45,495 bases of DNA from an uncultured Rubrobacteraceae bacterium (GCA_902806065.1 CADCVE010000024.1:1-45495); one strand, 5' to 3'; counted from the stretch's first letter, positions 10,919 to 45,495 are shown. Numbers and translations: made by a program. Notes: generated by a model from the sequence alone, not told the origin.

Positions 10919-10944
10919 GGAGCCCAGCGAAGCCAGGACCCCGG
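10919..10944 (+). repeat. 26-bp direct repeat, copy 1
   Basis: Begins GGAGCCCAGCGAAGCCAGG; pairs with 11217-11242, differing at three positions. Both lie in non-coding, decayed DNA. Possibly the remains of a duplicated segment. Confidence 0.35.
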
Positions 10945-10958
10945 CCTGCCTCCCTGGC

Positions 10959-11147: not shown

Positions 11148-11216
11148 GCGGAAGGTATTGAGCCTCCAGACGCTGCCATCCTGAGCTAGCTAAAGGCACA
11201 TTATACGAGAAGAGCC

Positions 11217-11242
11217 GGAGCCCAGCGGAGCTAGGACCCTGG
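11217..11242 (+). repeat. 26-bp direct repeat, copy 2
   Basis: Second copy of the element at 10919 (GGAGCCCAGCGGAGCTAGG and on), same orientation, about 270 bp apart. Confidence 0.35.
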
Positions 11243-11499
11243 TCCACGTTACTTCTCTCCCACTCAGTCGCGTACGAGACTATCCGGCTCCTCTCTACGC
11301 CGCCGATCCTCCTACTTGCCTTTGCAGTCATGAGGGTCAAATTTGTTGAGCCTCCACGGTTAGGACGTTAAAGCTTGTCCCATACATGGCCAATAACCTT
11401 GCTATCAAGGCTGAGACTGCGGCTTGCCGTTGCCGTAGCGACAACCCCTCCATCAGCCTCGGAGAGGGGTTGTTCGAGATGCGCACACTGGCGCATCGT

Positions 11500-11712
11500 C
11501 GCACCAAACTCTACGCTAGAAAGTATTGACCGGGAGCTTGAGGCACTGCGCGCAAGGCCCGCGAGCACATTGCCGACACAGCCAATCTCGCCGAGATGGC
11601 GAAGGAGCACATGGAGGAGGGCAGGTTTGAGGACGCATCTGCGCGCCTGCGCCTGATCCAGCAGAACGCGAGCATAGGTCGAGAGGGGCTTGGAACGCTC
11701 CTCAACCGGTAG
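11500..11712 (+). pseudogene. Frameshifted coiled-coil protein remnant
   Basis: Two overlapping frames join into one helical sequence: NSTLESIDRELEALR in the first, then after a frameshift near 11550 KAREHIADTANLAEMAKEH, EEGRFEDASARLRLIQQNAS and GREGLGTLLNR to TAG 11710. Neither frame alone has a good start. The stretch between 11148 and 11500 shows no other gene. Interpreted as the 3' part of a broken gene for a charged helical protein of unknown family. Confidence 0.4.
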
Positions 11713-11752
11713 GATGTGCGATGCCAACCTGCCAGATTACTGCGAGCACACA

Positions 11753-12773: not shown

Positions 12774-12962
12774 GCAACGACCTCCGCAACGCCGCTTCCG
12801 TCTCCGGTGGCATTATGCAGCATGGTTCCTCCTCTGGCGCGAAGTGTCCCTTAGAGGTCCGTAGCGGGACTCAGAATGGCCTTTTTTCCCTTAGTCGAAG
12901 GATCAAGGCCGCCAGACGAGCTCTTCGGGGCTCCGGCTTCTTTGCTCCGAGGAGCATTCCGG

Positions 12963-13628
12963 TCATCCGCGCGCTCTCCACCGACGCCATACGAACCAGA
13001 AGATCCCTCCAACTACAGCGGCTAGTACTACGTATTTGACAATCGACGCATACTCCTTCACGAGCGTCCACTCGGCGCCGAGTATCCACCCGAGGCCGAT
13101 CAAAGCCCCGTTCCACAGGGCGGTGCCGAGGATGGTGTAGAACAAGAATCGTCTGTGGATAGGCATGCGCTTGAGACCCGCCAGTACCGAGATGAGCGCG
13201 GACACACCCGGGACGAGGTGGCCGATCAGGACGGCTTTCCCACCATGTCTGTCGAACATCTTGCTGGCCTTGTTCAGGTCCGACTCGTGTACGAACACGA
13301 ACCGGCCGAACCGGCGGACGAGCCGGTAGAGGTTCTCCTCGCCGACCCAGAGGCCCGGGAGATACATAATCAGCGAGGCGACTCCTCCCCCTACCGTCGA
13401 GGCTACCAGCACGGGGACAAAGGAGAAACGTCCCTGCCCGACCAGGAAGCCGGAGAGGGGCAAGACCAGTACCGTGGGCACCGGGAGGTGCAGGTACCCC
13501 AACGCGACGAAAACGGCCACGCCAGGGTAGCCGAAGAAATAGAGGGCATCAGCGACCCACTGCGAGAGATTTGCAGCCAGGTCGCCCACCGTATCTCCTC
13601 TTCTTACCTCTGCTTCGTACGGACTCAT
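12963..13628 (-). CDS. DedA / VTT-domain membrane protein
   Basis: 221 residues with about five hydrophobic segments. The core FDRHGGKAVLIGHLVPGVSA followed by ISVLAGLKRM matches the DedA (SNARE-associated, VTT) signature F.rfGg....gRf.PgvR...s..AG..rM. In bacteria these proteins act in the plasma membrane and include undecaprenyl-phosphate and phospholipid transporters; the specific lipid is not determinable. The usual essential Arg after PG is Val here (PGVSALIS), a deviation worth noting. Start ATG 13628 (MSPYEAEV); MFDRHGG lies in the middle of the protein. The gene appears monocistronic. Confidence 0.85.
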   Translation of the reverse strand: MSPYEAEVRRGDTVGDLAANLSQWVADALYFFGYPGVAVFVALGYLHLPVPTVLVLPLSGFLVGQGRFSFVPVLVASTVGGGVASLIMYLPGLWVGEENLYRLVRRFGRFVFVHESDLNKASKMFDRHGGKAVLIGHLVPGVSALISVLAGLKRMPIHRRFLFYTILGTALWNGALIGLGWILGAEWTLVKEYASIVKYVVLAAVVGGIFWFVWRRWRARG

Positions 13629-31891: not shown

Positions 31892-31949
31892 GGCGATCCT
31901 TCTCGAACTAGAAGTAAAAGGGAAGGATCGAGGTGCTCCCCCAGATGAG

Positions 31950-31998
31950 TCGGGACGAGAGGATTTGAACCTCCGACCTCCTCGTCCCGAACGAGGCA
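31950..31998 (-). other. Orphan 3' half of tRNA-Pro(GGG), attachment site
   Basis: On the minus strand: anticodon stem TGCCTCG, loop TTCGGGA (anticodon GGG), stem CGAGG, AGGTC, T arm GGAGG-TTCAAAT-CCTCT, acceptor CGTCCCG and discriminator A. The matching 5' acceptor CGGGACG and a normal D arm are absent to its right, where the sequence runs into the element. A hairpin (CGCAGCA/TGCTGCG, 32038-32055) and two TTGACCCC repeats lie between it and the integrase. Confidence 0.75.
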
Positions 31999-32133
31999 CT
32001 CTCCTATCTCGCTGCTCTGTACAAAGACGCTGGAAATCGCAGCAAAAATGCTGCGGTTCGGGAGGGTAAACGAGAGCTTTGACCCCCGCAGTTGACCCCT
32101 ACGCCCTAACCACGGACACGGAAGGGGTGTTTC

Positions 32134-33249
32134 GTGGCGAAGAAGAACACGAACGGCGACGGGAGTCGCCCGCGGAAGAGACCGGATGGGCGGTACGAGG
32201 CCCGTTACTGGGTAGAGACCACGAACGGTCGGAAAAGGCGTAGTGTCTACGGCAACACGAACAAAGAGTGTGCCCAAAGGCTGCGGGACGCTATGGCGGC
32301 CACGGATGATGGGCCTGTGTTCGTGGCCGCGAATATCAAGGTAGCCGACTTCTTCGGGCAGTACGAAGATGTTGCCAAGGACACGATGAAGAGGCGGAGC
32401 TTCGAGACCTGCCACGACATAACCAGGCTGCACCTCTTGCCTTCGTTCGGCAATCTCAAGCTCAAGGACCTAAAGCGTGAGGACGTACAGAGGCTTTACT
32501 CTCGCAAGCGTGAGGGCGGTCTATCGGCAGCAAGTGTACGCCGTATTCACGATGTGCTCTCGTCCGCCCTCAACCACGCGGTCAAGTGGCAGCTGATCGA
32601 GCACAACGTTTGTAAAGACGTTTCGCCCCCGAGAGTACCGGCACCAGAGATACGACCGTTCAGCAAGGAGGAAGCGAAGCGATTTTTGTCCGCGGCGGAA
32701 TCGGATCGCCACCACGCCTTATACATATTGGGCGTGACCAGTGGTGCCCGTTGGGGAGAACTGAACGGTCTGTTCTGGGCCGATCTTCATCTAGATCGCC
32801 GCGTTATGCACATACAGCGTGCCCTCGTACGAGGGTACGGTGAGTACTCCCTCGAGGAGCCAAAGACCAAGGGAAGTCGTCGTAGTGTCAGGCTGGCCAA
32901 GTTGGCGGTCGACGCATTGGAGCGACACCGCGAAAGACAAGTAGCCGAAGGATTACCGGTAGACGGTGGTGCCCTGGTATTCACCAATACCGTCGGCAAG
33001 CCCATACACCAGTCGAACTTCATACGTCGCTTGTTCAAGCCTCTCCTGAAACGTGCCGGTCTGCCGGACACGAACTGGCATGCGGCGACTCGCCATACTT
33101 GCACGTGTGTCTTGTTGCTGGAGGGGGTGAATCCCAAATCCGTGGCAATGCAGATGGGGTGGAGTAGCGTGGCCTTCATGCTGGAGAACTACGCTCGCTT
33201 CATGCCAGGATGGGGGGACAACGGGGTTATGGACTCAGCACTCTTCTAA
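32134..33249 (+). CDS. int: Tyrosine-type site-specific integrase
   Basis: 371 residues from GTG 32134 after GGAAGGGG. N-terminal arm-binding part (RPDGRYEARYWVETTNGRKR), then a SAM-like core-binding domain (about 65-160), then the catalytic domain: Arg206 in TSGARWGEL, His316 and Arg320 in HAATRH, and the nucleophile Tyr353 in LENYARF. The second His is replaced by Trp (QMGWSS), as in many integrases. It catalyses integration and excision of the element at the adjoining tRNA-Pro half. No obvious excisionase is next to it. Confidence 0.92.
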   Translation: MAKKNTNGDGSRPRKRPDGRYEARYWVETTNGRKRRSVYGNTNKECAQRLRDAMAATDDGPVFVAANIKVADFFGQYEDVAKDTMKRRSFETCHDITRLHLLPSFGNLKLKDLKREDVQRLYSRKREGGLSAASVRRIHDVLSSALNHAVKWQLIEHNVCKDVSPPRVPAPEIRPFSKEEAKRFLSAAESDRHHALYILGVTSGARWGELNGLFWADLHLDRRVMHIQRALVRGYGEYSLEEPKTKGSRRSVRLAKLAVDALERHRERQVAEGLPVDGGALVFTNTVGKPIHQSNFIRRLFKPLLKRAGLPDTNWHAATRHTCTCVLLLEGVNPKSVAMQMGWSSVAFMLENYARFMPGWGDNGVMDSALF

Positions 33250-33335
33250 CCGTGCCGTGAGCATTCGTAACACCCTGGGTAACGCACGCCTCTTAGACAG
33301 CACCGGTGTGGAGTACTCATCCCTCGCACGTGAAA

Positions 33336-33363
33336 GGGGCAGACCCTTGAAGAGGTCTGCCCC
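33336..33363. terminator. 10-bp hairpin between integrase and exported protein gene
   Basis: GGGGCAGACC pairs perfectly with GGTCTGCCCC over an eight-base loop, between two convergent genes. It may serve both strands. Confidence 0.7.
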
Positions 33364-33396
33364 GTTGAAACCTTGAGACTACGGCCGGTAGTGTGG

Positions 33397-33747
33397 CTAA
33401 CGGACCATCCTGTGGGCCACCAGCCCGCCGCCGACAAGCAAGACCCCGGCACCAAAAAGTGCAGCGTTACCAGCGGACATGCCCCCACTTGCGGGCAACG
33501 CCTTTTGAGCGAAAGCAGTGTCCGGCACCGCTGCCCCCTGGTCCGGTGCTGCCGGGACCGCGGCCCCCTGGTCCGGTGCTGCCTTCTGTACGCCGCCGCC
33601 ATCAGCAGCCCTATTCTGTGCCCTCTGCTCTTGCTTAGCGGCCTTTTTGGCGGCCCTTTGGGCAGCCTTGTCGGTTTGTGCCATCGCGGGGGCGGCGGCT
33701 ACCGCCAGCATAATGACCGCTATCGTAAGGATCATGATTCGCTTCAC
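33397..33747 (-). CDS. Small exported protein with sortase-like C-terminus
   Basis: 116 residues from GTG 33747, seven bases after AAGGAGG. Residues 1-23 form a Sec signal peptide ending APAMA. The middle is Ala/Gln/Lys-rich with two copies of PDQGAAVP. The end has LPASGG, a hydrophobic helix (NAALFGAGVLLVGGGLVA) and HRMVR: the layout of an LPxTG-type cell-wall sorting signal, with Ala-Ser in place of x-Thr. It should be attached to the wall or membrane surface. Similar in layout to the protein at 40993; both end in RMVR/RMVK. Confidence 0.75.
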   Translation of the reverse strand: MKRIMILTIAVIMLAVAAAPAMAQTDKAAQRAAKKAAKQEQRAQNRAADGGGVQKAAPDQGAAVPAAPDQGAAVPDTAFAQKALPASGGMSAGNAALFGAGVLLVGGGLVAHRMVR

Positions 33748-34500
33748 TGCATTCCCTCCTTAGCAGTTTTTCCGTATCCAACAGCTCCGATACTGGAGCA
33801 AGGGACACGATTAGTCAATAATTGTTTGTAAATTGTTACGAAACCTTAACAAAACGAAGCCGTGACAGTCGAATGTGAGGATTATGGTGGGGGAGCGACT
33901 CGTATCAGGTATTCGCTCATCAGCTCGGTGGTGCCCCACGAGAACGGCAAGAACACCACCGCCCGTTCGCAAGAGGATTTAGTCACCCGGGTGGCGGAGA
34001 AACACAAGTCAGCCTTTTCACTTCGGCACCCCCCAGGCGATCCTCGCTGGGCTACCCTGCCCGATTCCATCACCCTCGGGTGCAAGCCACACGTGCCCCG
34101 GGCGGTGCACGGACACATGAACGACGCCTTGAGCTGATACCAGAGCAGGCATTGTGGCAACGTTCCGGATCGTAAGTGATGGGTGCTGTGTGCGTATTCC
34201 GCCCGCCGACACAGCTAGTGGCAGACCGCCACAAACAGGGCCACGAGGATCGCCTGTATCGCCGAAAATCAGTTGGAGACACAGAGACCCCTACCCGAGC
34301 CCTCAGAGGCCGTTAGAACGGCTCTGGTGGCCTCTGAGAAGATGATAAAGCGTTAGTCACTAGATTCAGTGACGAGAATGAGATCAGGTGATCCTTGTGG
34401 TTCTTCGAGTACATAACCCGAGGGTCTACCCAGCCGTCACGGGGCGATTGCGACGCTGGTAGGCGAGGTCCTCGTCGTGCGTCTGTAGCCCTGGGGTCGG
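33748..34500. other. Region without a convincing gene
   Basis: Overlapping frames on both strands near 33860-34160 look like shadows and lack ribosome binding sites. A hairpin sits at 34302-34338 (see its own entry). No other gene or repeat recognised. Confidence 0.35.
34302..34338. terminator. 10-bp hairpin in the 34-kb gap
   Basis: CTCAGAGGCC pairs with GGCCTCTGAG around a 17-base loop, itself partly self-complementary (GTTAGAAC). Its gene is unclear; it may end a small transcript in this gap. Confidence 0.45.
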
Positions 34501-34525
34501 GGTACACTGGCCAGAAAGGAGAGAG

Positions 34526-34818
34526 ATGGATCTCTGTATAAGCGATTGTTGAAAGAGCGAGCGGAAGAGGAGCGACACAGGGAGAGACCCCTGCGTATGT
34601 TCCACAACGTGGACTCCCCGGTCCTGGATAGACGGTTGGCTGACGCTCCGGAGAACCGTCCAGGGTACGCTCCCGATCTGGTCCTGCTCCATCGTTACAC
34701 CCACACGGGTCCCACGAACGCCGGGACGTGTATGAGATATGTGGCCTTAAGGCAGAAGTACGTGAAGGAGCACGTCGAACTTGTAAACGAGGTCCGGGGC
34801 CAGGGAGCGTTGTTGTGA
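34526..34818 (+). CDS. Small hypothetical gene with an odd start
   Basis: A frame to TGA 34816 has coding character: LLKERAEEERHRERPLRMFH, YAPDLVLLHRYTHTG, TCMRYVALRQKYVKEH. Its best ribosome binding site, AAAGGAGAGAG, lies directly before ATG 34526. That ATG is in another phase and gives only MDLCISDC before a TGA which overlaps the TTG start (34549) of the main frame. A TACACT box at 34503 would place transcription start between. So either a leader peptide couples to the main frame, or a frameshift near 34545 broke the original start. No family recognised. Confidence 0.4.
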
Positions 34819-34880
34819 TCGCTTTTGCACGCACTTGATGTTCCTCCCTTTTGCTGCCGTTTGTATCCCCACCCAGTAAT

Positions 34881-34916
34881 GGAGGGGCACGACCGTAGAG
34901 TAGGTCGTGCCCCTCC
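34881..34916. terminator. Perfect 14-bp hairpin
   Basis: GGAGGGGCACGACC pairs exactly with GGTCGTGCCCCTCC across an eight-base loop. It lies between the converging genes at 34526 (+) and 34987 (-) and suits a bidirectional terminator. Confidence 0.75.
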
Positions 34917-34986
34917 TCGCACACGCAACGCTGCGATCGTACGCCCAGCTTCGAGACGTCAACCCCGTACTACGTGGTCTTCAGTC

Positions 34987-37185
34987 CTACACGCCGAGTA
35001 TCCGGCACTGGGCCTCCTCCACTTCTCCAGGGGTGGGGTCGCGGTCAAGTTCACGGAAGACGCCCTCTGCTATCAAGAAGCTGGGGGCGGCGGTCACGTG
35101 TTCGGGGCGTTCGGCGACGTGGCGACGCAACACCCTCTCCACCTCCAAAAGCCATGCCCGGTCCGCCTCCGTCTCGACATCATCGTCCGCGTCGGTCCAG
35201 ACGGGGGCATCAGAGTCCCCGAGATTCGAATCCTGGGAGAAGGAGCCGGAGCCCGTCGATGACCCCATGGTGTCTCCGCTGCCGGTACCGGCATGTTCTG
35301 CCTCAGATTTACCCTCGGTACCCTCGGTACTCTCGGCATCGGCGTCCACGTTACCTTCATGAGCAGCAGTATCGAGGGTAGACAACGAGAGCACAATGAT
35401 CGGGCTGCTGCCTCTATAGGCCTCCGTTAAGGAAAGGGCGTCGTCCTGCCGGGCGATCTCCCTGATCATCTTGCCGAAAGGTACCGGTCCACGGGGCAGA
35501 CCGGGGGCAGAGCGAGCCCTGAAGATACCGTACAACACCTCGGTCATACCCTCCCATCTGCCCCCCTGCTCGCGGAGGAAACCCTTTAACGACGCCGCCA
35601 GCAGGTTCTGGGGCTTATCCCCGTTGAGCTTGGCGTGCACCCTCCGGGCGTGGGCCTTGAAGTAGGCGACGAGATCCGCAGCGGCCCTAACGTCCTGCTT
35701 GATTACCATATTGCTGGAGAAGACTCGACCGGAATCACCCCGCCCCGCGATGCGCACCAAGGCCATTATGAGGGTGAGGCGGCCCAGGTAGGCTTCGAGC
35801 TTTGCCCAGGGCCCTGTGAGGTACTGCGGGAACTGCGGGTGCTCCATCTCCTCACGCAAGGAGTCGACCTCGTTGACCCAGATCTCCTTGGCGTTGCGGG
35901 CGAATTCCAGCCGCTTTGGGACAGGATCGCCATTTTCGTCCACCTCCATCTCGAGGTTGTACAAACCGTCGTAAATCTCCTGGTAACCTTCAACGGCCTC
36001 GTCACTGATCTCGTTGTCGTTGTAGCGGCTATAGACGGGATCCGGGTAGGCGAGAAGGAACCTGTCTACGAACCCGTCGTCGCGGTTGTTCTTCAGCTCA
36101 GGTAGTATCTGCGGCTGGATCGAGCCCACCACGCACACGAAGGGAAGCGGAATTATGATGGGCACGTCCCCGCCCTTCCGGTCCACGGCGATGGGGGAGC
36201 CTGACCACATGGAGAGGTAGACCTGTTGGTCGGAGCCCTTACCGCCCGCCTTGTACTGGTTCATCCCCTTCACGAACGCCGACAACTCGTCCTTGCCGAC
36301 GATGAGACCTCGAGGATTAACTTCCTCGCGATTCACGAGGGCCTCTACCGTGGTGTCGTCCACGGCGGTCCGCCTCATGACAGGCTTCTCTGGTTCGGGA
36401 GGTTCAGGCTGGCCGTTATCCCTCGCCTGCTCCTTTTCGTCCTCCCAACGACTGTGCTGGTCAGGGTACTCTGCCACATCCTTGCGGTACTCCCGCAGAA
36501 GAATCGCCTGGCGGTTCCAGACCGGCCTCATAGCCACCTTGAAGGCCGGGGTCTTCTTCTGCCCGGGGTCTGCAACTACCGCCGCGTAAACACCCGCACT
36601 CTCGGTCCAGCCCCCCTTTATCTTCAGCACGTGGCTATTGCCAATCGCCGCCCCGAGTGCACCCAGCATCGGAACGGCGATAAACTCGGGCGGGCAACCG
36701 ATGGACGCGGCGGCCTCCTCGACGATCCTCCTCAACCTGGGCCGCAACGCTCGCGTAGGGAACGCGGGGACAGGAGGTAGCTTGGTGGGCATAGCGTCCG
36801 ATAGCGAGGAATCAGCGTCGCCGTGACCGTCCGTGCTAGTACCTGGTCCTCGTCGGTCGTAGCAACCAGGCTCGTAATGCTCTCGCATCTCCGGCCACCC
36901 GTAGCTCTGGCACGAGTCGTGCTGACACCCGGCAGCGACGGCACCGTTCTCGAACTGCACGATGTAGCAGCTACTGTCCGTGTGCCCGTTCCAGGGGCAC
37001 TCCTGCAGCACCCACCTGCGATCCTTATCGTTCCACTTCCCTACCCTCAAGACCTCGATGTCGTGGTCCTGCAGCCACTGGTCCACATCGAACCCACCCC
37101 GACCGCGGGCAGAACTGCCGCGAGGCGGGGACGGATTCATGAGGGTCATGGCCTCAAGCAACTCCCGGTCAACTACTATCGTCAT
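34987..37185 (-). CDS. DUF3987 replication protein
   Basis: 732 residues. The N-terminus has a Cys/His cluster (ECPWNGHTDSSCYIVQF, then GCQHDSC) of the primase zinc-finger kind. Residues about 150-560 match DUF3987 (PF13148): PEFIAVPMLGALGAAIGNSH, VADPGQKKTPAFKVAMRPV, LIVGKDELSAFVKGMNQY, DDGFVDRFLLAYPDP. These proteins carry a degenerate helicase/ATPase-like domain and accompany primase-polymerases on phages, plasmids and islands. A low-complexity acidic/Ser-Gly linker (about 625-690) leads to a small C-terminal helical domain. Its ATG overlaps the TGA of the primase gene as ATGA, so the two are translationally coupled and act together in element replication. Confidence 0.85.
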   Translation of the reverse strand: MTIVVDRELLEAMTLMNPSPPRGSSARGRGGFDVDQWLQDHDIEVLRVGKWNDKDRRWVLQECPWNGHTDSSCYIVQFENGAVAAGCQHDSCQSYGWPEMREHYEPGCYDRRGPGTSTDGHGDADSSLSDAMPTKLPPVPAFPTRALRPRLRRIVEEAAASIGCPPEFIAVPMLGALGAAIGNSHVLKIKGGWTESAGVYAAVVADPGQKKTPAFKVAMRPVWNRQAILLREYRKDVAEYPDQHSRWEDEKEQARDNGQPEPPEPEKPVMRRTAVDDTTVEALVNREEVNPRGLIVGKDELSAFVKGMNQYKAGGKGSDQQVYLSMWSGSPIAVDRKGGDVPIIIPLPFVCVVGSIQPQILPELKNNRDDGFVDRFLLAYPDPVYSRYNDNEISDEAVEGYQEIYDGLYNLEMEVDENGDPVPKRLEFARNAKEIWVNEVDSLREEMEHPQFPQYLTGPWAKLEAYLGRLTLIMALVRIAGRGDSGRVFSSNMVIKQDVRAAADLVAYFKAHARRVHAKLNGDKPQNLLAASLKGFLREQGGRWEGMTEVLYGIFRARSAPGLPRGPVPFGKMIREIARQDDALSLTEAYRGSSPIIVLSLSTLDTAAHEGNVDADAESTEGTEGKSEAEHAGTGSGDTMGSSTGSGSFSQDSNLGDSDAPVWTDADDDVETEADRAWLLEVERVLRRHVAERPEHVTAAPSFLIAEGVFRELDRDPTPGEVEEAQCRILGV

Positions 37186-37856
37186 ACATTTACCTCCGTA
37201 GGAACCTTCAACAGCTCTGAGCGACGGTGAGGACGCCCGGGGACGTCATCGCCCTTGCGGGCCATCGTCCCGTAGACCTTCGATATCCTCGCCGCGTTGT
37301 AGACGCTCGTGTCTACCTTGACTTTCTCGTCATCGAACCTGAACGCCAAGGCTTGGAGCACGTTCTTCACGAGATCCGTGGACTCCTGATCGTTGGGTAG
37401 GTCGATGCGGTAGAGTAGGTGGTACCCGTTGCCAGAATCACCGACCACCGGATCGGGCCAGCCACGGCCCCTCAGATACTCCCTGACCTCGCGGGCCCGC
37501 AACTCGGCCGCTTCCTTCTCCGCCTCTGTCGAGGACACCCCCGAAGGTCTTACGCAGTCGAAGTCCAACAACAACCACTGGCGGCGTAGTACGTCCCTAT
37601 CCGAGGTGGTGTTTTTGGGCCGCTCTTTCGTGCGATTGGCCGCCCTGGCGAACAGAGCGGGATCAACCCGATTCAGGGTTACGTAGACTTCGTAGCCGCG
37701 TAAATCCATGCGGTGAGCAGCCGCGACGAAGTCGTCCCCGTTGTCGAAGTACCCAGAGACGGTCTGCTTGTCCCCAAAGGCCCGGATCTCCGTGACGTCA
37801 CCAGACTCGACGAGAGCATCGTAAGTCTGCCGTATCTGGTCTTTGACACCGCTCAT
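37182..37856 (-). CDS. Primase-polymerase (archaeo-eukaryotic primase fold)
   Basis: 224 residues. Catalytic motif I is LLLDFDCVRP (Asp98, Asp100), motif II GDSGNGYHLLYRID (His146), and a third acidic position lies in KVDTSVYNAARISKVYGT, followed by RKGDDVPGRPHRRS. This set matches the small AEP/RepB-like prim-pols of plasmids and integrated elements. It would make primers or short DNA at the element's origin. It is the first gene of the replication pair and reads away from the hairpin/repeat region at 38.1-38.2 kb. ATG 37856 (MSGVKDQIRQTYDALV). Confidence 0.85.
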   Translation of the reverse strand: MSGVKDQIRQTYDALVESGDVTEIRAFGDKQTVSGYFDNGDDFVAAAHRMDLRGYEVYVTLNRVDPALFARAANRTKERPKNTTSDRDVLRRQWLLLDFDCVRPSGVSSTEAEKEAAELRAREVREYLRGRGWPDPVVGDSGNGYHLLYRIDLPNDQESTDLVKNVLQALAFRFDDEKVKVDTSVYNAARISKVYGTMARKGDDVPGRPHRRSELLKVPTEVNV

Positions 37857-38475
37857 TTGTGGCTCCCCGGCAGGTCGAGCCGTGAGCCGTGGGGGTCACC
37901 ATCTATATGTCTGGTATCCTGAACGTGCAAGTGAATGAGATCTCCTTTCTCTTTTGCTTGCAGTGCTTGGAGCCGGTCGGCGAGTTCCGGGACGCCAATC
38001 TGGGTTCTCGCCGCCGCTCCTCAAGGTCTGTCGTCTGACCTTCTCGATCATGGGCCTAGCGTAACACGCCTAGTATGTTAACCCCCTACCCCCCCTTTCC
38101 CCTTAACAATGGGCTTTAGCTGCCAACAGATCTCCGAAAGGAAAGGGCAATACGAGTGTATTAACCCCCCTAGAGAGAGCCCTTAACCTCAAAAGTCTTA
38201 TTAAGAAAAACAAATTTTTCTTAATAAGACTCAGTAATGCCAAACAGAGCACCGCACCTTACGGAGCCACTATCTACCTCGGGTATAGTTATTTGTGTAA
38301 CAAGGAGAATCTTCGGTACGTGTGTACCTGCGGAAGAGAGTATCGAACGCATGTCCTCCATCGCCTGAAGCCATCTTCCTGTAGAGACTCCGTAATTTAC
38401 GAGGAATACGTGTCAATGGTCATGATCATGTTGGGGCCCTCCAGAAGCTCCCGAACACGTTTGGGAATCGATTCC
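37857..38475. other. Putative replication origin with AT-rich perfect hairpin
   Basis: No gene with coding character. At 38195-38230 a 16-bp arm (GTCTTATTAAGAAAAA) pairs perfectly with its reverse complement over a CAAA loop. This makes a strikingly AT-rich hairpin in GC-rich DNA. Just upstream, TTAACCCCCTA (38078) and TTAACCCCCCTA (38161) repeat, with CTTAAC variants at 38102 and 38182. Position beside the prim-pol operon, AT content and iteron-like repeats suggest the origin and/or operator of the replication module. Confidence 0.5.
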
Positions 38476-38544
38476 TACCCTCGGTACCCTAGATCTCCCC
38501 ACTCCCAGGTTACTGCATCACCGAGAGTACCTAGAGTAGAATCC
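38476..38544 (+). repeat. 69-bp direct repeat with internal inverted arms, copy 1
   Basis: Starts CTACCCTCGGTACCCTAG and ends CCTAGAGTAGAATC. Arms at 38476-38494 and 38522-38540 are inverted repeats of each other (about 16 of 19 positions). Its partner is at 40102; the last 29 bases are identical. It lies 110 bp before the ApeA gene. Confidence 0.8.
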
Positions 38545-38653
38545 TGGTCAATCGAGTCACGCAATACTTAGGCTCACCCCCAAATACCTGGCCGCATCTT
38601 CTATTTTTAACAAGTGGTATCAACATCTGCCCAACTGAGAAGGAGATGTAGCA

Positions 38654-40009
38654 TTGAACGAAACGTTAGAGTACCAGGGGTTCTGGTGGCTGCCTGGTGC
38701 AGACGGGGACAAAGTTCCTGGCCTCCTCAAGTTCGAGCCCGACGACGGTTCGACCCTGGATCTACTTGGGTCGCTCAAGGGCTTGAAAGGCGTCATTGAC
38801 CCCCTTGAGCCGGAGATTATCCTGGGCCTCTCATCTGATGGGAAGCTCATTACGTTGGCGGATTGCAGGAAAACCTCAGGCAACTTGGCATTCGGTAGTG
38901 GCTTCTCAACCTCCACCTTCGCTGTAAACACGATCTTCGCGGGTGAACATTTTTGGCGAGCAGAGGACATCGAGTTTGAGAGGCTCCAGGTCGAGTACCT
39001 GCACCTAGGAGCGTGGGCACATTCATCGGTCTTCGAGATGGAGATGATCGACCAGCCAGATGTCCAACCGTTTACGGTGAGGCACAAGATCGCTGAGCCT
39101 ATGACCGCCACCGTGAAGGACGGATACGAGGTGATCTTGTACTTTGGATCCTACCGTGAGTGGTCCCGTCTCCCAGTTACCTGGGTGAATATTACCCAGC
39201 CTGCCGAGCTTGTCATTAGGTTTCCAGAGAAGGAGCCCTTCGATCGTCTCAGCGACATCGTCTTCCGTCTCCAGCACCTTTTGAGCCTCGGGACGAGGAG
39301 GTCCGTATACCCTGTCGCCGTTAGGGGTTACACGGGTCCCGTGGGCGAGGCAAGGCAGGTGGACGTCTCCTACAGGACACTTGGCAGAAGCGGTATCTCC
39401 CAGGAGAGGCCGGAGCTGTACGAGATGCTCTTCTCCCGCCGATCCCTCCCCGGGGGATTTGGGCCCGCTGTCGCAAGCTGGCTTGAGGGGGCCGAGAAAC
39501 TGGATCCCGTCTATAGACTCTTCCTCGGCACCGTGTATAACCCCTCCGCATTCATAGAGCAACAGTTCTTGAGTCTTGTGACGGCCCTGGAGGTCTACCA
39601 CAGGAGGGCCGTATCCACCCCTCAACCGCCGGAAAAGCACGACAAGCGTAAGCGGGAGATCCTCGAAGCCGTGCCCGCCGATCACAGATACTGGCTGGAG
39701 CGGGAGCTTAAGTTTAGCCACGAGCCCACCCTCGAGGCGAGGCTCCACGAGATCTTTCGCAAGAACCTCGAAATCACGCAGGCTGTGGTGGGGAGAAAGA
39801 AAAAGGCCAGGGCGGACTTCATACAAGAGGTCGTTAACGCCAGGAACTACCGTGCTCACTTTGATGAAAGATTGGAGGGTAGGGCCGCCAGGGGTGTGAA
39901 GCTGCATCCGATCAACCAGAAGCTCACGCTCCTGCTGGAGGGATGCTTGACGGCGGAGATCGGGTTCGAAGCCGACGAGATAAAGAACGCTATTTTGGGT
40001 GTACGGTAA
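38654..40009 (+). CDS. ApeA-type HEPN anti-phage protein
   Basis: 451 residues from TTG 38654, seven bases after AAGGAGA. The N-terminus LEYQGFWWLPGADGDKVPG begins an ApeA N-terminal domain: WxP, then LKFEPDDGSTLDLLGSL and a beta-rich region to about 290. The C-terminal part is an ApeA-like HEPN domain. LSLVTALEVYHRR begins its first helix, and VNARNYRAHFDERL carries the RNase motif Arg397-x4-His402. ApeA-family proteins are abortive-infection defence factors, with HEPN cleaving RNA (known from E. coli homologues). It stands alone between two 69-bp repeats inside the mobile element, so it looks like a self-contained defence cassette. Lower GC than host genes is not obvious. Confidence 0.8.
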   Translation: MNETLEYQGFWWLPGADGDKVPGLLKFEPDDGSTLDLLGSLKGLKGVIDPLEPEIILGLSSDGKLITLADCRKTSGNLAFGSGFSTSTFAVNTIFAGEHFWRAEDIEFERLQVEYLHLGAWAHSSVFEMEMIDQPDVQPFTVRHKIAEPMTATVKDGYEVILYFGSYREWSRLPVTWVNITQPAELVIRFPEKEPFDRLSDIVFRLQHLLSLGTRRSVYPVAVRGYTGPVGEARQVDVSYRTLGRSGISQERPELYEMLFSRRSLPGGFGPAVASWLEGAEKLDPVYRLFLGTVYNPSAFIEQQFLSLVTALEVYHRRAVSTPQPPEKHDKRKREILEAVPADHRYWLERELKFSHEPTLEARLHEIFRKNLEITQAVVGRKKKARADFIQEVVNARNYRAHFDERLEGRAARGVKLHPINQKLTLLLEGCLTAEIGFEADEIKNAILGVR

Positions 40010-40101
40010 CTCTGCACAAATAAATTCTGGAACCTTCTAGCAGGGCAAGGTAATCTGCAGGGGTTCTATGGAGCACCTCGCCGATCTTAAGCAATGTAGA
40101 T

Positions 40102-40169
40102 CTACCCTCGGTACTCTAGGGTCCCCACTTCCGGGTTGCCGCATCACCGAGAGTACCTAGAGTAGAATC
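40102..40169 (+). repeat. 69-bp direct repeat, copy 2
   Basis: Same orientation as 38476-38544, with about eight differences including one gap; last 29 bases identical. Also contains inverted arms. It lies 92 bp after the ApeA stop and 62 bp before the DUF11 protein gene. Confidence 0.8.
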
Positions 40170-40231
40170 GTAACCATCCGTTCGACGGAGTTGGTGGCGA
40201 CGTCTACTCCTAGGATCGTGAGGTAGAAGAA

Positions 40232-40702
40232 GTGCGGAGAATAGTTTGTTTAGGGACGTTATCGGTAGTGTTCGTACTTATGTTTGCGGCTCCGGCTTGG
40301 GCTCAAGAACTGGTTGTCAACAAGGAAGACAACCCCGACCCGGTCGAGGTGGGAGACCTACTTCTCTACACCATAGTCGTAGAGAACGCTGGTAATGAAA
40401 CGGCCACGGATGTTGTTCTCGGCGACGCACTACCAGTCAACACTACGTTCGTCTCGGCTACCCCCTCCGCAGGCATTGTGTGTATCGTACCGTCGCCGGG
40501 AACCAGGGGTGGCATAGTAACCTGCAACTTGGGCAACCTTGAGCCCGACGAAGTCGGCACCGTAGAGATATTGGTCAGGCCGACGGCGGAAGCGGGAGAG
40601 GTAGGGTTCGTTACGAATACAGTGACGATTGCGGGAACAAACACCACTCCCGCCGTGGCTACAGAATTAACTCAGGTCATCCCGAACGATGAGGAGAATT
40701 AG
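40232..40702 (+). CDS. Secreted DUF11-domain protein, with in-frame continuation after TAG
   Basis: 156 residues from GTG 40232, with a Sec signal peptide (residues 1-24, ending APAWA). The rest is one DUF11/CARDB-like beta domain: VNKEDNPDPVEVGDLLLYTI, VVENAGNETATDVVLGDALP, VTCNLGNLEPDEVGTVEI. Such domains form extracellular stalks. After the TAG at 40700 the same frame runs 48 codons more to TAG 40847, with PGAGEPGAGEPG repeats and an acidic stretch ending SGDVNQSFEVS. The last motif resembles ESGEVEQTFEVS in the exported protein at 41515. Readthrough would give a 205-residue protein; otherwise a nonsense mutation shortened it. Confidence 0.75.
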   Translation: MRRIVCLGTLSVVFVLMFAAPAWAQELVVNKEDNPDPVEVGDLLLYTIVVENAGNETATDVVLGDALPVNTTFVSATPSAGIVCIVPSPGTRGGIVTCNLGNLEPDEVGTVEILVRPTAEAGEVGFVTNTVTIAGTNTTPAVATELTQVIPNDEEN

Positions 40703-40918
40703 GGACCTGGAGCCGGAGAACCTGGAGCCGGAGAACCTGGTACTGGTCCACCGGCATCAGGGATTACCGAGGATGTTCAAGAGCTTGAACAGGAGGGCGA
40801 CCAGGACGCCGAGAGCGGCGATGTGAATCAGTCATTCGAGGTCAGTTAGAGAGCCTCGAGGATCTGATCTGAGGCCCCCCGAGGGGGCGGGTTAAGGTAA
40901 AGCAGGGATAAAGAAGAA

Positions 40919-40946
40919 GAGGCGGGTCCCCATAAGGACCCGCCTC
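40919..40946. terminator. Bidirectional hairpin terminator
   Basis: GAGGCGGGTCC pairs with GGACCCGCCTC over CCATAA, 11 bp, between convergent exported-protein genes. A TATT follows on the plus strand. Confidence 0.75.
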
Positions 40947-40992
40947 CTATTCGTGACTCTTTAGTTAGAGCTACTGCTGCATGCTACTGCTA

Positions 40993-41421
40993 CTACTTGA
41001 CCATCCTGCGGGCAAGCAGGCCGCCAGCGACCAGCAACGTGCCGGCACCAAGGGCGAACAGCGACGCGGTGCTACCACCGGTCTTCGGCAGCTCCTTCTT
41101 TTCTTCCTTCTTCTCCTCCATCTTCGGAGCAGGAGCAGGAGCGGGGGCCGGAGCCTGGACAACCTTCGGAGCCGGAGCCGGAGGCGGCGGGGGCGGCGGG
41201 GCCGGGCAGTCAGCCTTGGCGACTACGCCGCCAGCCTCGGCTTCTATGACCTTGCCCTTACCGTCAGGCGGACAGTCGACCTTAGCCTCAGCGTCGCCAG
41301 CCTTCGCCGTCGGAGCCTTCGTGGAGTCCGCGACCACCGGGGGCGGGTCCTGAGCCAGGGCCGGAGCCGCAGCCACCATCACTACCGCCAGCATTGCCGC
41401 CAGCATCATCAACTTCCTCAA
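40993..41421 (-). CDS. LPxTG-type surface protein, Pro/Ala-rich
   Basis: 142 residues from TTG 41421, preceded by AGGAGGTAGAAG. Signal peptide of 23 residues (ending APALA). Two Cys (KVDCPP, KADCPA) flank a repeated linker, followed by PAPAPAPAPK repeats and a run of eight prolines. The C-terminus is a textbook cell-wall sorting signal: LPKTGG, hydrophobic helix (LFALGAGTLLVAGGLLA), RRMVK. A sortase (not in the window) would link it to peptidoglycan. The Pro/Ala-rich part would act as a spacer through the wall. Same layout as the protein at 33397. Confidence 0.85.
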   Translation of the reverse strand: MRKLMMLAAMLAVVMVAAAPALAQDPPPVVADSTKAPTAKAGDAEAKVDCPPDGKGKVIEAEAGGVVAKADCPAPPPPPPPAPAPKVVQAPAPAPAPAPKMEEKKEEKKELPKTGGSTASLFALGAGTLLVAGGLLARRMVK

Positions 41422-41457
41422 CTTCTACCTCCTAGTAAGAAACGATTTTCATCAGAA

Positions 41458-41482
41458 GCGGGCCCCTACTAGAGGGACCCGC
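41458..41482. terminator. Hairpin after the exported protein gene at 41515
   Basis: GCGGGCCCCT pairs with AGGGACCCGC (one G-U pair) over ACTAG, downstream of the minus-strand gene at 41515. Confidence 0.6.
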
Positions 41483-41514
41483 CTTGTAGCACCGCTAGAG
41501 CTAGGCCCTAGCCC

Positions 41515-41865
41515 TTAGCCGGCCGCCGCAGCCTGGTTGACTTCCTGCGTGCAGGTCGTCGTGAACTCCTGGTCCTCATTGATCGTGAGGGAGTCGCCGA
41601 TCTCATCCTGCTCGATCTCCTCGATGTCCGAGGCGTACTGGATCGTACCGCTCTGCGTCTGCAGGTTACCGGTGTTAGCGGTGCCATTGACGCCGACACA
41701 CTGGTTGCCGTTGCTACCCTCGCCGGAAACCTCGAACGTCTGCTCGACCTCGCCGCTCTCGGTCTCCTGCTCGAACCCCTGCTCGACCTGAGCCATGGCC
41801 GGGATCGCCGCAACGACCAACATCGCCAAGAGTGCTGCCAGCATTACTATCTTCTTCAACTTCAC
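41515..41865 (-). CDS. Small exported acidic protein, unknown
   Basis: About 116 residues; signal peptide to AIPAMA (residue about 25). Mature part is acidic with Gln/Glu repeats: EQGFEQETESGEVEQTFEVS, then SNGNQCVGVNGTANTGNL and DEIGDSLTINEDQEFT, a two-Cys pair likely disulfide-bonded. No sorting signal or membrane helix, so probably released. Annotated from GTG 41865, but TTG 41859 has a better spaced AAAGGAGTGAAG. Shares the (E/D)SG(E/D)V-x-Q-(S/T)FEVS motif with the readthrough tail at 40703-40849. Confidence 0.65.
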   Translation of the reverse strand: MKLKKIVMLAALLAMLVVAAIPAMAQVEQGFEQETESGEVEQTFEVSGEGSNGNQCVGVNGTANTGNLQTQSGTIQYASDIEEIEQDEIGDSLTINEDQEFTTTCTQEVNQAAAAG

Positions 41866-41901
41866 TCCTTTACTGAAAGTATTAACACTACCTCTATTAT
41901 C

Positions 41902-42318
41902 TTAACATTTTCGACATGCAGCGTCAATGTTCAGGCACGCCCCCCCCTGGTACGTTAGCCTAAAGAACCGCTGACGGCGGTGGTCACCTGGAGGAAGGCA
42001 CGCTGTGGGAAAAACGCTTACAAAGACCTGAGGCTCATCAACGTGTCCCGCGTCCTGCTCTGGTAACGCCGTCAGCATCGTCTGTCTCTTTTTAGCCGAC
42101 CCGGTCTGATCTCCACCCCACTCTTTGGCGTCCAGAACGAACTCCCAGTAGTCGCCGTTTTCCCGATCACTCCTCAAGCAATCCTCATCCTCGCCGATCC
42201 TCTCCAGGCACCCCTCCATGAAGCCCTTCACGTACTTCGAATCGAGGGCTAACCCGAGATAAAACTTCTGGGCGTCGTAGCCGTGGTCGTATCCTATGGC
42301 CGCCCTGCCCTCGAACAC
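41902..42318 (-). CDS. Hypothetical protein
   Basis: 138 residues from GTG 42318, preceded by ATCGGAGGATAG. It begins MFEGRAAIGYDHGYDAQKFY and has DYWEFVLDAKEWGGDQTGSA in the middle. The C-terminal 45 residues (from about QVFVSVFPTA) are more Cys/Arg-rich and less protein-like, so a frameshift or recent extension near the 3' end is possible. No membrane segment, no family recognised. Confidence 0.5.
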   Translation of the reverse strand: MFEGRAAIGYDHGYDAQKFYLGLALDSKYVKGFMEGCLERIGEDEDCLRSDRENGDYWEFVLDAKEWGGDQTGSAKKRQTMLTALPEQDAGHVDEPQVFVSVFPTACLPPGDHRRQRFFRLTYQGGACLNIDAACRKC

Positions 42319-42407
42319 CTATCCTCCGATAACCTGTGAGGGTGCACTTCCACGAGGATGACCGCCCTGTCTACCAGCACGTGTCGGCCCCCAGGAGCCT
42401 GCTCCCC

Positions 42408-42833
42408 CTACCTCTCGTCTTTTTGCTGATCTCCCCGCGTTGGTGGCCTGCCCCCGGTATAGAGGCTGAAGAAGGCGTCCATGTTACGTTGGTACTGCTC
42501 CAAGGACTTGGCCCAGAAGTTCAGGTACGCCTCCCCGGCGTTCGTGATGGAGTACACCCGGCGTGCCGGTCCTCCGCCGTTGATCGTGTCCCACTCAGAC
42601 TCCACAACGCCGTCCTTCTCCATGTTCCTCAAGGTCCTGTACAACGTGCCCGGGTTCATCGCCTCGAACCCGAATACTGTCGCCTGCTCCATGAGCTTGT
42701 ATCCGTACGAGGTACTCTCTCGCAAAGACAAAAGGATCACCGGCACCAGCCAGTTCCTGGGTCTTACCTCGATCCTGTTGATGCCTCCCGGCCGGTTTTC
42801 GCCCCCGTGCCTCTCGCGTTCCTCGTCGGGCAT
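42408..42833 (-). CDS. PadR-family transcriptional regulator
   Basis: 141 residues. The winged helix is clear: PVILLSLRESTSYGYKLMEQ, then EAMNPGTLYRTLRNMEKDGV with the recognition helix, and RRVYSITNAGEAYLNFWAKS as wing and start of the C-terminal dimerisation helix. PadR proteins repress neighbouring genes and release DNA on binding a ligand. An imperfect palindrome upstream (42889-42908) may be its own operator. Start ATG 42833; target genes are not identified. Confidence 0.85.
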   Translation of the reverse strand: MPDEERERHGGENRPGGINRIEVRPRNWLVPVILLSLRESTSYGYKLMEQATVFGFEAMNPGTLYRTLRNMEKDGVVESEWDTINGGGPARRVYSITNAGEAYLNFWAKSLEQYQRNMDAFFSLYTGGRPPTRGDQQKDER

Positions 42834-42888
42834 ATCTCCTTCTCTACACTCGCGGCCTTCATCTTATCTGCACTTCATTATAGTGTTT

Positions 42889-42908
42889 CAAATTAGCTTA
42901 CTAAATTG
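42889..42908. promoter_or_regulatory. Imperfect palindrome, candidate PadR operator
   Basis: CAAATTAG and CTAAATTG, a 7/8 inverted match, are separated by CTTA, about 55 bases upstream of the padR start in an AT-rich intergenic region. PadR operators are usually ATGT-n-ACAT; this differs, so confidence is low. Confidence 0.3.
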
Positions 42909-43050
42909 CATACAAAGATGTACAGCATCCTGATGGCTATATGGAATAATTCGGGCCTGGTCGCTGCGAGAGATTGTAGAGGAAGGCTACTTGCACCGTT
43001 GCTTTCTCTTGGCAGTGCCTACGGCACTACGTTGATAAGGGGAATGGCAA

Positions 43051-43308
43051 ATGAGGGATAAGGGCGAGGTAGATCAGGAACTTGAAGATGCCGGTTGGAA
43101 GACCGACGGCACCTTCTCGGAGCATCTGACCATCGGGGAGTCGGGTGACCTATGCTTACTAGTCCACCGTAGCACCTTGGAGACCAATGAGCCTACCTAC
43201 GAACTCTACGACGTGGACAAACATCTCTCCTATTGGGTACACGAGATTCCGACCCCTGAGGAGGCTGCCAGGCAATTGAAGGAGCACGGGGAGCCCCCCA
43301 AGGAGTAA
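43051..43308 (+). CDS. Small conserved hypothetical protein, paralogue of the 3071 protein
   Basis: 85 residues from ATG 43051 after GATAAGGGGAATGGCAA. It starts MRDKGEVDQELEDAGWKTDG and ends YELYDVDKHLSYWVHEIPTP, then EEAARQLKEHGEPPKE. The central region and the last 30 residues align with the 115-residue protein at 3071. Function unknown; acidic and probably soluble. This copy is inside the mobile element, the other in the chromosome. Confidence 0.65.
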   Translation: MRDKGEVDQELEDAGWKTDGTFSEHLTIGESGDLCLLVHRSTLETNEPTYELYDVDKHLSYWVHEIPTPEEAARQLKEHGEPPKE

Positions 43309-43495
43309 TAAGCCCTCCTACAATGGTCGTGGGGTAGAGGACGTGGTTTTCCTACGTTCTAAGGCTTGTCCGAGGGTCCCTCCACACAGAAACGTGTGTT
43401 ACGAATACTGCCCCCGGGGCCTATTCTCCTCCTTTCCCCAAAGGCTCTTGAAGGACGGGCACCGGGGACTACCAATGGTAGCTAGGTTATGAAGC

Positions 43496-43540
43496 CGAGG
43501 GCTTCCTCTGCTGAAGGCTTCCTAGTAAGGAAGCCCCTCG
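43496..43540. terminator. Bidirectional hairpin between 43308 and 43522 genes
   Basis: CGAGGGCTTCC pairs with GGAAGCCCCTCG (one bulged base), with a nested GGCTTCC/GGAAGCC hairpin at 43516-43535 that covers the stop codon of the minus-strand gene. Confidence 0.6.
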
Positions 43541-43803
43541 TTCTCGCCATCTTCAAGATCATCGTAACGCCAGGGGTGGATATCCTCATCACCTTGCGAT
43601 GGACGGCCGGACAGATCCTTCCGGACGATCCCCGTGTGATCCGCCCCGCATTCCTCGCAGGCGGTATAGGAGGGAGTGAGGGCCACCCTCTCGCCACACA
43701 CGCACTCGACCACGACCCTCTCCGGACGCCACTTGTAAACCTTGCCAAACACCACATATTCGGCTTCGTAGCCCGCACGGGCACGCTCGATTACCTTCGC
43801 CAC
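43522..43803 (-). CDS. Small zinc-ribbon protein
   Basis: 93 residues from GTG 43803, preceded by GGAAAGGGAAGTTA. VVECVCGERVALTPSYTA followed by CEECGADH supplies Cys-x-Cys and Cys-x2-Cys, a small zinc ribbon. The N-terminus (VIERARAGYEAEYVVFGKV) is beta-like and the C-terminus acidic. A role in binding DNA, RNA or a protein partner is possible but not shown. The longer frame to 44040 has no start support. Confidence 0.6.
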   Translation of the reverse strand: MAKVIERARAGYEAEYVVFGKVYKWRPERVVVECVCGERVALTPSYTACEECGADHTGIVRKDLSGRPSQGDEDIHPWRYDDLEDGENEGLPY

Positions 43804-44210
43804 TAACTTCCCTTTCCCACTGATGTACAGATATAAAGATTGAAGTACACATTGTACCAGACGATGGCCCAAAAGGTGTAGACGTCTGCACATTATGGGC
43901 CATGAATGAGCACGCAGGCCGGAGTGGCTCACTCCCGGCCCCGGTCTGATAGATCCAAGACGCCCCCTCCCCGCTTTCAGGACGGGCCACCCGGCGACGT
44001 TCCGTGGCCCAGCCCCGGTCCGCCACCGGCCTGCTAGCATGCCCCAGCGATGCAGCCACGCCCGCTCGGGTTCTTTCCGTTAGGCTTCGGCCCCAACAGG
44101 TATAGAATGAACCTCACGTTAGGCTGCAACAGCCACGCACGGGGCAGGGCAAGCCCTACCCTGCTAAGAGCAGCGAGCCGCGTTGTGCATATCCTAGAAA
44201 GGCGGTGCCC
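43804..44210. other. Intergenic region of the response regulator
   Basis: About 400 bases without a gene. A near-perfect hairpin (GGCCGGAGTG with CACTCCCGGCC, near 43918-43940) and AT-rich sequence near 43820-43860 (GATATAAAGATTG) may hold divergent promoters of the zinc-ribbon gene and response regulator. No operator recognised. Confidence 0.3.
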
Positions 44211-44906
44211 ATGAGAGAAGGAGGGGACGGCGAGACGAACCGACCCATCAGGGTGCTCCTCGCTGACGACCACACCCTGTTCCGCCGGGGTCTCGCGACG
44301 CTGCTCGCCTCCTACGGGGGCTTGGAGATCATAGCGGAGGTGCCCAACGATCAGGAGGCCCTAAGGCTCGCCCAGCAAGAGAAGCCAGACGTGGTCATCA
44401 TGCAGGTGCAGATGCCCTTCGAGAGAGCCAGGGAGTCTCTCTCGAAGATGAGCGAGATCTCGCCTGCTCCCAAGGTGGTCATAGTGACTATGTTCGAGAA
44501 ACCGCGTTACTTGCGCGAGTTTATGAGCCTGGGGGCTAGCGCCTACCTGCTAAAGAGCGTTTCCGTCGAGCACCTCATCGGCGCGGTGAGGGCGGCGGTC
44601 TTCGATCCTGAGGGGCAACACGTTGTGGTGGGCCTGCCCCAACAGATGATCGAGGAGGTCAAAGAGGGGTCTGGGGGCGTGCTCTCGGTGAGGGAGATGG
44701 AAATACTGGTGCTCGTCGCCCGGGGGCTTTCCAACCACCAGATAGCGAGCTCGCTGAGCGTGTCGGGGGCCACGGTAAAGCGCCACCTGGCCAACGCCTA
44801 CCCAAAGATGGGCGTCGCCTCTAGGAGCGAGGCCGTAAGAGAGGCTCTCTTCAAGAACTGGATCACCATCGAGGACATTACGAAACAGGACGAAGAAGGC
44901 GAGTAA
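44211..44906 (+). CDS. NarL/LuxR-family response regulator with Gln at the phosphorylation site
   Basis: 231 residues. Receiver domain: acidic pocket Asp19-Asp20 in LLADDHTLFRRG, signalling Thr in VVIVTMFEK, Lys115 in YLLKSVSV. The phosphoacceptor position reads VVIMQVQMP, so Gln65 replaces Asp. The LuxR helix-turn-helix is SVREMEILVLVARGLSN, then IASSLSVSGATVKRHLANAY. This suggests an atypical receiver locked in one state or controlled by a ligand or partner. ATG 44211 follows GAAAGG; GTG 44205 is an alternative. No histidine kinase is adjacent; a convergent receiver-like protein follows. Confidence 0.88.
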   Translation: MREGGDGETNRPIRVLLADDHTLFRRGLATLLASYGGLEIIAEVPNDQEALRLAQQEKPDVVIMQVQMPFERARESLSKMSEISPAPKVVIVTMFEKPRYLREFMSLGASAYLLKSVSVEHLIGAVRAAVFDPEGQHVVVGLPQQMIEEVKEGSGGVLSVREMEILVLVARGLSNHQIASSLSVSGATVKRHLANAYPKMGVASRSEAVREALFKNWITIEDITKQDEEGE

Positions 44907-44954
44907 GAGGAGTAAACCACCGACCGGAGGTCTCCCGCAAACTACTCTCCGGTA

Positions 44955-45287
44955 CTAGGGGACTAGCCTCTGGGTCTCCTCGACCACCCCGATGAGGTCT
45001 TCAATGGCTATGTCCTGTATAAGGCGCGGGTCTTGTCCGTCGATGAAGACGCTCGCGCTCAAGTGATCGTGGTAGCGGATCACGACCCAGGAGGAGACGC
45101 CAACCTCCTCCCCTACCTCCGAAGCGTTGTCGTTGCACACGATCAGGTGGGGACGAAACGAAGTCGCCTCCCGGTTGAGTGCCTGAGGGTCGGCGAGGCG
45201 CATCTCGTCGTCGGGGCGGTCCCTCCTTATGATATGGGCGAGCGTTTCGCGGTACATGGTGGGCGCTACAGCAACCAGTATGCGCAT
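44955..45287 (-). CDS. Receiver-like protein of unknown function
   Basis: 110 residues from ATG 45287 (MRILVAVAPTMYRETLAHII). The pattern of VAVAPTMYRETL, FRPHLIVCNDNASE and SWVVIRYHDHLSASVFID resembles a truncated response-regulator receiver: beta strand, helix, strand with Cys-Asn-Asp where the phosphoacceptor should be. DNA-binding domain is absent. Converges on the response regulator at 44211; a regulatory partnership is possible. The frame extends to 45320 but the extra residues look unlike this family. Confidence 0.6.
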   Translation of the reverse strand: MRILVAVAPTMYRETLAHIIRRDRPDDEMRLADPQALNREATSFRPHLIVCNDNASEVGEEVGVSSWVVIRYHDHLSASVFIDGQDPRLIQDIAIEDLIGVVEETQRLVP

Positions 45288-45421
45288 AGGGCCTGCGGCT
45301 CCTTCCCTAGCGGAACGCATCCCCGCGCGGGAAGGCCCGAAATCGGTGGTTTGCTCTCAGGTTATATACCTTTGCCTACAGCGGTTTGCGTAACGACTGA
45401 CGGGCGTGCGATGCTTTGCGC

Positions 45422-45495
45422 GTGAATGCCTACTCGAAGGACCTAAGGATGAGGGTGCTAGCAGCCGTCGACCAGGGTGACCCCTACTTGGAGGT
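45422..45495 (+). mobile_element. IS630-type transposase, first codons
   Basis: GTG 45422 opens MNAYSKDLRMRVLAAVDQGD, continuing to the window edge. AYSxDLRxRVLxAVDxG is the well-known N-terminus of IS630-family transposases, before their helix-turn-helix. The IS end should lie in 45350-45420 (next to TTATATACC), but the terminal repeat cannot be matched without the other end. Confidence 0.75.

Follow-up and report, generated by a model that had tools for sequence, protein, structure and literature searches.

What kind of mobile element, if any, is marked by a 3' piece of a tRNA gene that lies directly beside a tyrosine integrase, a prim-pol and a DUF3987 gene in an uncultured Rubrobacteraceae bacterium? 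The window, by which we mean the whole stretch of DNA analysed (45,495 nucleotides), is the entire contig C24 of a 3.75-Mb draft genome. A preliminary description, made from the sequence alone, had read everything from 31950 to its right-hand end as an integrated element. All the genes it listed, from the tRNA 3' fragment with the adjoining integrase, through the prim-pol/DUF3987 pair and the ApeA-type gene, to the exported and sorting-signal proteins, the PadR regulator and the small proteins, are present where it placed them (Table 1). Our analysis makes it very probable that we see here one end of a mobile element that integrated site-specifically in this bacterium and probably replicates by itself.

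Table 1 Features of the island in the window (contig C24)
Feature	Position	Strand	Evidence and remarks
attL	31938..31997	.	3' part of tRNA-Pro(CGG) plus 11 bp past the tRNA; 100% over 60 bp with the attR copy
Arm-type repeats TTTGACCCCC...TGACCCCTACGC	32078..32104	+	Second pair inside the right end, C109:1384-1408
Tyrosine integrase, 371 aa	32134..33249	+	PF00589 6e-16, PF14659 4e-9; phrog_1 integrase 1e-59
Exported protein, LPASG-type sorting signal, 116 aa	33397..33747	-	Signal peptide, LPASG, hydrophobic stretch, basic tail (translation)
DUF3987 helicase-like ATPase, 732 aa	34987..37185	-	PF13148 3e-62; phrog_2373 DNA helicase 6e-37
AEP prim-pol, 224 aa	37182..37856	-	Catalytic motifs; AlphaFold model, mean pLDDT 97.1; PDB fold match
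Perfect 17-bp inverted repeat (hairpin)	38194..38231	.	AT-richer intergenic stretch; z -3.8 for 38050-38330
ApeA-like HEPN protein, 451 aa	38654..40009	+	PF18862 8e-41, PF18739 2e-25; PADLOC PDC-S58 2e-91
Exported DUF11 protein, 156 aa	40232..40702	+	PF01345 6e-16
LPKTG sorting-signal protein, 142 aa	40993..41421	-	PF00746 4e-6; paralogues at many places in the genome
Exported protein, 116 aa	41515..41865	-	Paralogues on C74, C18, C53
ORF, 138 aa	41902..42318	-	First 45 aa 76% alike on tRNA-Glu island C60; no family match
PadR-family regulator, PhaQ-like	42408..42833	-	PF03551 7e-18; TIGR02719 129.5 bits, below the 139.35 cut-off
Small protein, 85 aa	43051..43308	+	Also on tRNA-Glu island C60 (76%) and beside PadR on C20 (70%)
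Small probable zinc-binding protein, 94 aa	43522..43806	-	Second copy C109:1-146, 95% DNA
LuxR-type response regulator	44205..44906	+	PF00072, PF00196
121-aa protein	44955..45320	-	Paralogue on C31 (77%)
IS630-type insertion sequence, first end	45374..45495	+	Exact copies on C14, C97; contig breaks here

The integration site and its empty counterparts

When the region was searched against the genome, an exact 60-bp match to the left-hand repeat appeared at C109:1500-1559 (E 7.9e-23). An intact tRNA-Pro gene with the anticodon CGG lies there on the minus strand (C109:1511-1585). On its 5' side chromosomal genes follow, the first of them glutathione-S-transferase-like, and on its 3' side there is 1.5 kb of inserted DNA including an IS630-type transposase (both read from translations). 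The repeat in the window is attL; attR and the restored tRNA are on C109. The intact tRNA-Pro that the preliminary description proposed to seek beyond the right end is thus located, at the other end of the element; its CGG rules out the anticodon GGG given earlier, and the extent of the repeat moves the start of the island from 31950 to a point 12 bp earlier.

A query in which the left flank, the tRNA and the right flank were joined matched unbroken over the junction in many relatives (G009, G008, G016, G010, G006, G035-G037, G023 and G024). The empty site that had been suggested as a check is clear in the alignment: in at least six relatives, the end of an ABC-F gene lies near an intact tRNA-Pro(CGG), contiguous with it and with no island sequence between, and in some other relatives, for example G001, several hundred bases separate the two genes. 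The lack of any empty site was what the preliminary description had named as refuting it, so its reading withstood this comparison. The exactness of the 60-bp repeat, together with the site being empty in relatives, excludes chance. The island is therefore shown to be real, and it is seated in tRNA-Pro(CGG) between 60-bp direct repeats with an intact tRNA at its far end.

Just inside attL are the arm-type repeats. TTTGACCCCC and TGACCCCTACGC each occur once in the window and once in C109, in the same orientation; a similar pair adjoins a related integrase on contig C60, and a complete element in the relative G037, described below, has its own TGACACC repeats at both ends. The tyrosine integrase would bind these arm-type TGACCCC repeats inside both ends, and a circular attP may have recombined with the 3' half of the tRNA gene in such a way that the tRNA was rebuilt. 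The visible part of the tRNA-Pro element yielded no excisionase-like gene; an excisionase-like HTH ORF immediately precedes the prim-pol in three relatives, G023 and G037 among them (read from sequence).

The right end

Position 45495, where the preliminary description had the element finish, is the end of the contig and not that of the element; since the window stops inside an IS630 copy, the element is incomplete there. What is visible amounts to 13.5 kb on C24 and at least 1.5 kb on C109, with the middle unassembled. C109 starts within a gene, and C109:1-1340 contains another IS630 and another copy of the zinc-protein gene. Three contigs with the other IS630 end, C105, C63 and C48, were candidates for the gap. 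C105 was dropped, since in relatives ~1 kb separates the flank of C105 from that of C97; C63, which has a copper ATPase among its genes, and C48 both resemble chromosomal DNA, and neither was assigned to the gap. The IS630 insertion and the copies of host-family genes suggest an old or partly decayed island.

These observations bear on whether the island is a composite, with several elements or IS rearrangements between the att copies and the cargo right of 40.2 kb foreign to the prim-pol element. The IS630 at the window end, its second copy with the zinc-protein gene on C109, the close paralogues that many cargo genes have elsewhere in the genome and the two small proteins shared with a sister island in tRNA-Glu would all fit such an origin. 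Set against it are the lack of any further att copy within 31998-45495 and the matching arm-type repeats of the two outer ends, and we regard a composite as somewhat unlikely.

The predicted replication module

In an alignment of the prim-pol with 40 relatives, D98 and D100 (DxD), SGxGxH at 141-146, D182, R190 and K201-G202 are invariant, and R190 is followed by a near-invariant I191. All four features of the PrimPol-PV1 type (DxD, the motif II His/Gln, hD and an Rh motif IV) are present. No Pfam family matched the protein, and sequence and profile searches against the PDB gave no real match. A fold search of the PDB with the model gave primase RepB' (3h20) as the best match (E 1e-5), and further matches were to the LigD polymerase domain, an archaeal primase and the CRISPR-associated Prim-Pol (CAPP). 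With TM-scores of ~0.5, the resemblance is at the level of the superfamily and not that of a close relative.

The prim-pol gene overlaps by 4 bp with that of DUF3987, which is single-copy in the genome. The two are fused into a single protein in G037, G026 and G022, and in a protein of G002, likewise, a prim-pol domain is linked to a segment that is related to the DUF3987 protein of the window. The partner is a different AAA-type ATPase in G023 and RecA/RepA-like in G004 (read from the sequences), differences that correspond to the helicase swapping of Kazlauskas et al. (PMC5862659). From the prim-pol fold and catalytic motifs, the helicase-like partner and the fusions in relatives we infer that the element is probably self-replicating, as the preliminary description had proposed. 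After excision, the prim-pol would prime and extend DNA and the DUF3987 ATPase would unwind it, so that the circle is copied; the prim-pol/helicase block, with its interchangeable helicases, would then be the replicon of the element.

The region 37857-38653 had been called origin-like. It is indeed AT-richer and contains one perfect 17-bp hairpin and two TTAACCCCC repeats; an origin was not borne out, as there are no iterons in the region and nothing upstream of prim-pol in relatives resembles it or shows conservation. The hairpin is a possible origin or regulatory site. On the other side of the module, the stretch at 33.75-34.99 kb contains no convincing gene, and its 203-aa ORF has a low third-position GC.

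Sister elements and distant relatives

Prim-pol is found in 7 of the 39 genomes of the class. Two complete elements could be delimited. The first is in G023, a one-contig assembly of 3,225,748 bp which we take to be Rubrobacter xylanophilus DSM 9941, where it occupies tRNA-Arg(TCT) between 43-bp att repeats from 1616383 to 1625321 (8.9 kb); the second, in G037, occupies tRNA-Val(TAC) between 48-bp att repeats from 38641 to 47038 (8.4 kb). Both contain an integrase, a prim-pol, a helicase and, beside the prim-pol, a large gene (358 aa in G023 and 457 aa in G037) whose product gave no family matches. The integrase/prim-pol core is common to the island and the two complete sister elements, and it is the helicases and neighbours that change. 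In G022:C251 (L133), a TopoVI-A-like and TopoVI-B/GHKL-like pair lies at 1951-4598, directly beside a prim-pol/DUF3987 fusion.

An alignment search found 405 prim-pol relatives in named genomes, many of them in methanogenic archaea and Bacilli, and there are 392 in IMG/VR contigs. A single-sequence scan of the named genomes with DUF3987 gave no matches. Many Methanomicrobiales have prim-pol relatives; on the methanogen plasmid pMETHO01 (L095, NC_019972.1), a protein annotated as HEAT-repeat contains a prim-pol that shares 44% identity with the one in the window.

Class of the element

Nearly all bacterial PrimPol-PV1 genes belong to integrated elements, for which tRNA genes are the commonest site, and these elements have been divided into (i) prophages, (ii) conjugative or mobilisable elements and (iii) cryptic elements with neither phage nor conjugation genes (Kazlauskas et al. 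2018, PMC5862659); the main text of that paper does not mention Rubrobacter. On its settled features the island, of which only ~15 kb is visible with the middle unassembled, fits class (iii), the 'cryptic integrated MGE'. It has an AEP prim-pol with motifs I-III and the Rh motif IV, a DUF3987 helicase partner as in the PrimQH and All3500 families, and the direct repeats made in a tRNA gene by a tyrosine recombinase, here represented by the 60-bp repeats, the adjacent integrase and the empty sites. As the preliminary description had noted, no phage capsid or conjugation genes are to be seen: no phage structural or conjugation genes were recognised, either within the 15 kb that is visible or in the two sister elements that are complete. 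The island differs from most of the class (iii) relatives fetched, which are fusions, in having prim-pol and helicase as separate overlapping genes, and from the class in its cargo of an ApeA-type gene and surface proteins. The earlier view that this gene combination is not known as a described element fails at the level of class, since PMC5862659 describes elements that have a prim-pol, are integrated in tRNA genes and lack phage and conjugation genes. It is well supported that the island is a further case of an already described, poorly studied class of cryptic integrated elements.

AICEs with a prim-pol are also known, and have an integrase, a prim-pol and an adjacent replication gene (PMC3218068). 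An AICE whose TraB was lost, or lies inside the assembly gap, would share with the island this set of genes, the actinobacterial host and the integration at a tRNA 3' end. However, the island has no visible TraB-type FtsK, and the only FtsK/SpoIIIE-domain protein above the cut-off in the genome (95% complete assembly) is on C54, off the element, so the island is not an AICE as assembled and AICE-type conjugative translocation was rejected for it. The AICE replication module (RepSA, RepAM or the PF09250 prim-pol) was not matched either: the prim-pol of the island, having no Pfam match, is not PF09250, and its partner is DUF3987 and not DUF3631. The complete sister elements are small, and no transfer gene was recognised in them. 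That the island is such an AICE is very improbable.

P4/PICI-like phage satellites consist of an integrase, a primase/helicase replicon and defence cargo in a variable slot, and the island resembles them in all three. The alternative that it is a degenerate prophage or phage satellite, its integrase and prim-pol/helicase derived from a phage and packaged by a helper phage, gains from the prim-pol relatives in IMG/VR and from DUF3987 relatives both in phages and in contigs of the genus that are phage-like, for example beside a gene reading as DNA polymerase I (G003:C144). Yet the part within the window and both complete sister elements of 8-9 kb have no capsid, terminase or portal gene, no packaging, capsid-remodelling or cos-related gene was seen, no helper is known, and the prim-pol appears in only two phage records, at 40-43% identity. 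We consider a phage origin of this kind unlikely. With neither capsid nor transfer genes in view, the cryptic integrated element that we favour would depend for horizontal transfer on a helper, either a phage or a conjugative plasmid; as the middle is unassembled, transfer genes could be hidden.

Replication by a prim-pol/DUF3987 pair becomes directly testable here, because a cryptic prim-pol element now has defined ends, known empty sites and two sister elements that are complete, all in an actinobacterial lineage that has been little studied. DUF3987 is of 'unknown function' in Pfam and its helicase role is only predicted. The slot beside the prim-pol is a place to seek unknown accessory genes. 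The picture of how such elements work is unchanged.

Cargo genes

The ApeA-like protein has the Rx4H motif RNYRAH (the HEPN Rx4-6H motif is defined in PMC3710099), and PF18862 and PF18739 are both above their cut-offs. Its best PADLOC model is the candidate family PDC-S58, and it is like the ApeA/PDC-S58 HEPN defence proteins in combining an ApeA N-terminal domain with an Apea-like HEPN domain bearing Rx4H. From plasmid-borne ApeA relatives it is distant, with at most 29% identity among the matches listed. The gene is found in two of the 39 class genomes, the source genome and G014 (30% identity), a sporadic distribution that is as expected for cargo; the source genome has in addition an ApeA fragment on C56. 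None of the 159 other prim-pol loci fetched contains ApeA, and there was no match in the phage collection. Judged by its domains, this is probably an anti-phage defence gene. The variable slot past the prim-pol would hold accessory genes, in this case an ApeA-type HEPN RNase that may act as an abortive-infection defence.

The preliminary description had the element carry a defence gene together with cell-surface proteins. The list of genes stands, with anti-phage activity predicted. The exported and LPXTG genes have matches at many other genomic locations, which makes them members of host-wide families; as copies from such multi-copy families, they need not be cargo specific to the element. 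The exported/LPXTG pair (window 40901-41928) belongs to a strongly multiplied family with ~20 other places scattered over the genome. The PadR gene and the 85-aa small protein have a second collinear copy on C20 (77% DNA; L042, C20:14000-30000, at 6648-7582).

A wider reading would be that Rubrobacteraceae harbour a separate lineage of minimal (8-9 kb) prim-pol elements, which spread as helper-phage satellites and in which the slot beside the prim-pol is a defence hotspot; ApeA, the TopoVI-A/B-like pair of G022 and, as new defence systems, the 358-aa protein of G023 and the 457-aa protein of G037 would be its occupants. As a whole this is speculative, and we think it improbable.

Other islands in the same genome

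A second island lies beside tRNA-Glu(CTC) at 12606-18071 of L040 (C60:70000-88070). Its integrase is related to that of the window element (65%), and it also has a sortase and two of the small proteins of that element. Integrases of the same kind are also found directly beside tRNA-Ala(TGC) and tRNA-Arg(CCT) (L124, C106:50000-60234, and L125, C27:108000-116224), and both of these islands extend toward contig ends. The window contig itself has no related integrase besides the one at attL. Within window 9001-13000, just past tRNA-Ala(CGC) at 9403-9476, GC drops to 0.54-0.58, which possibly marks another island.
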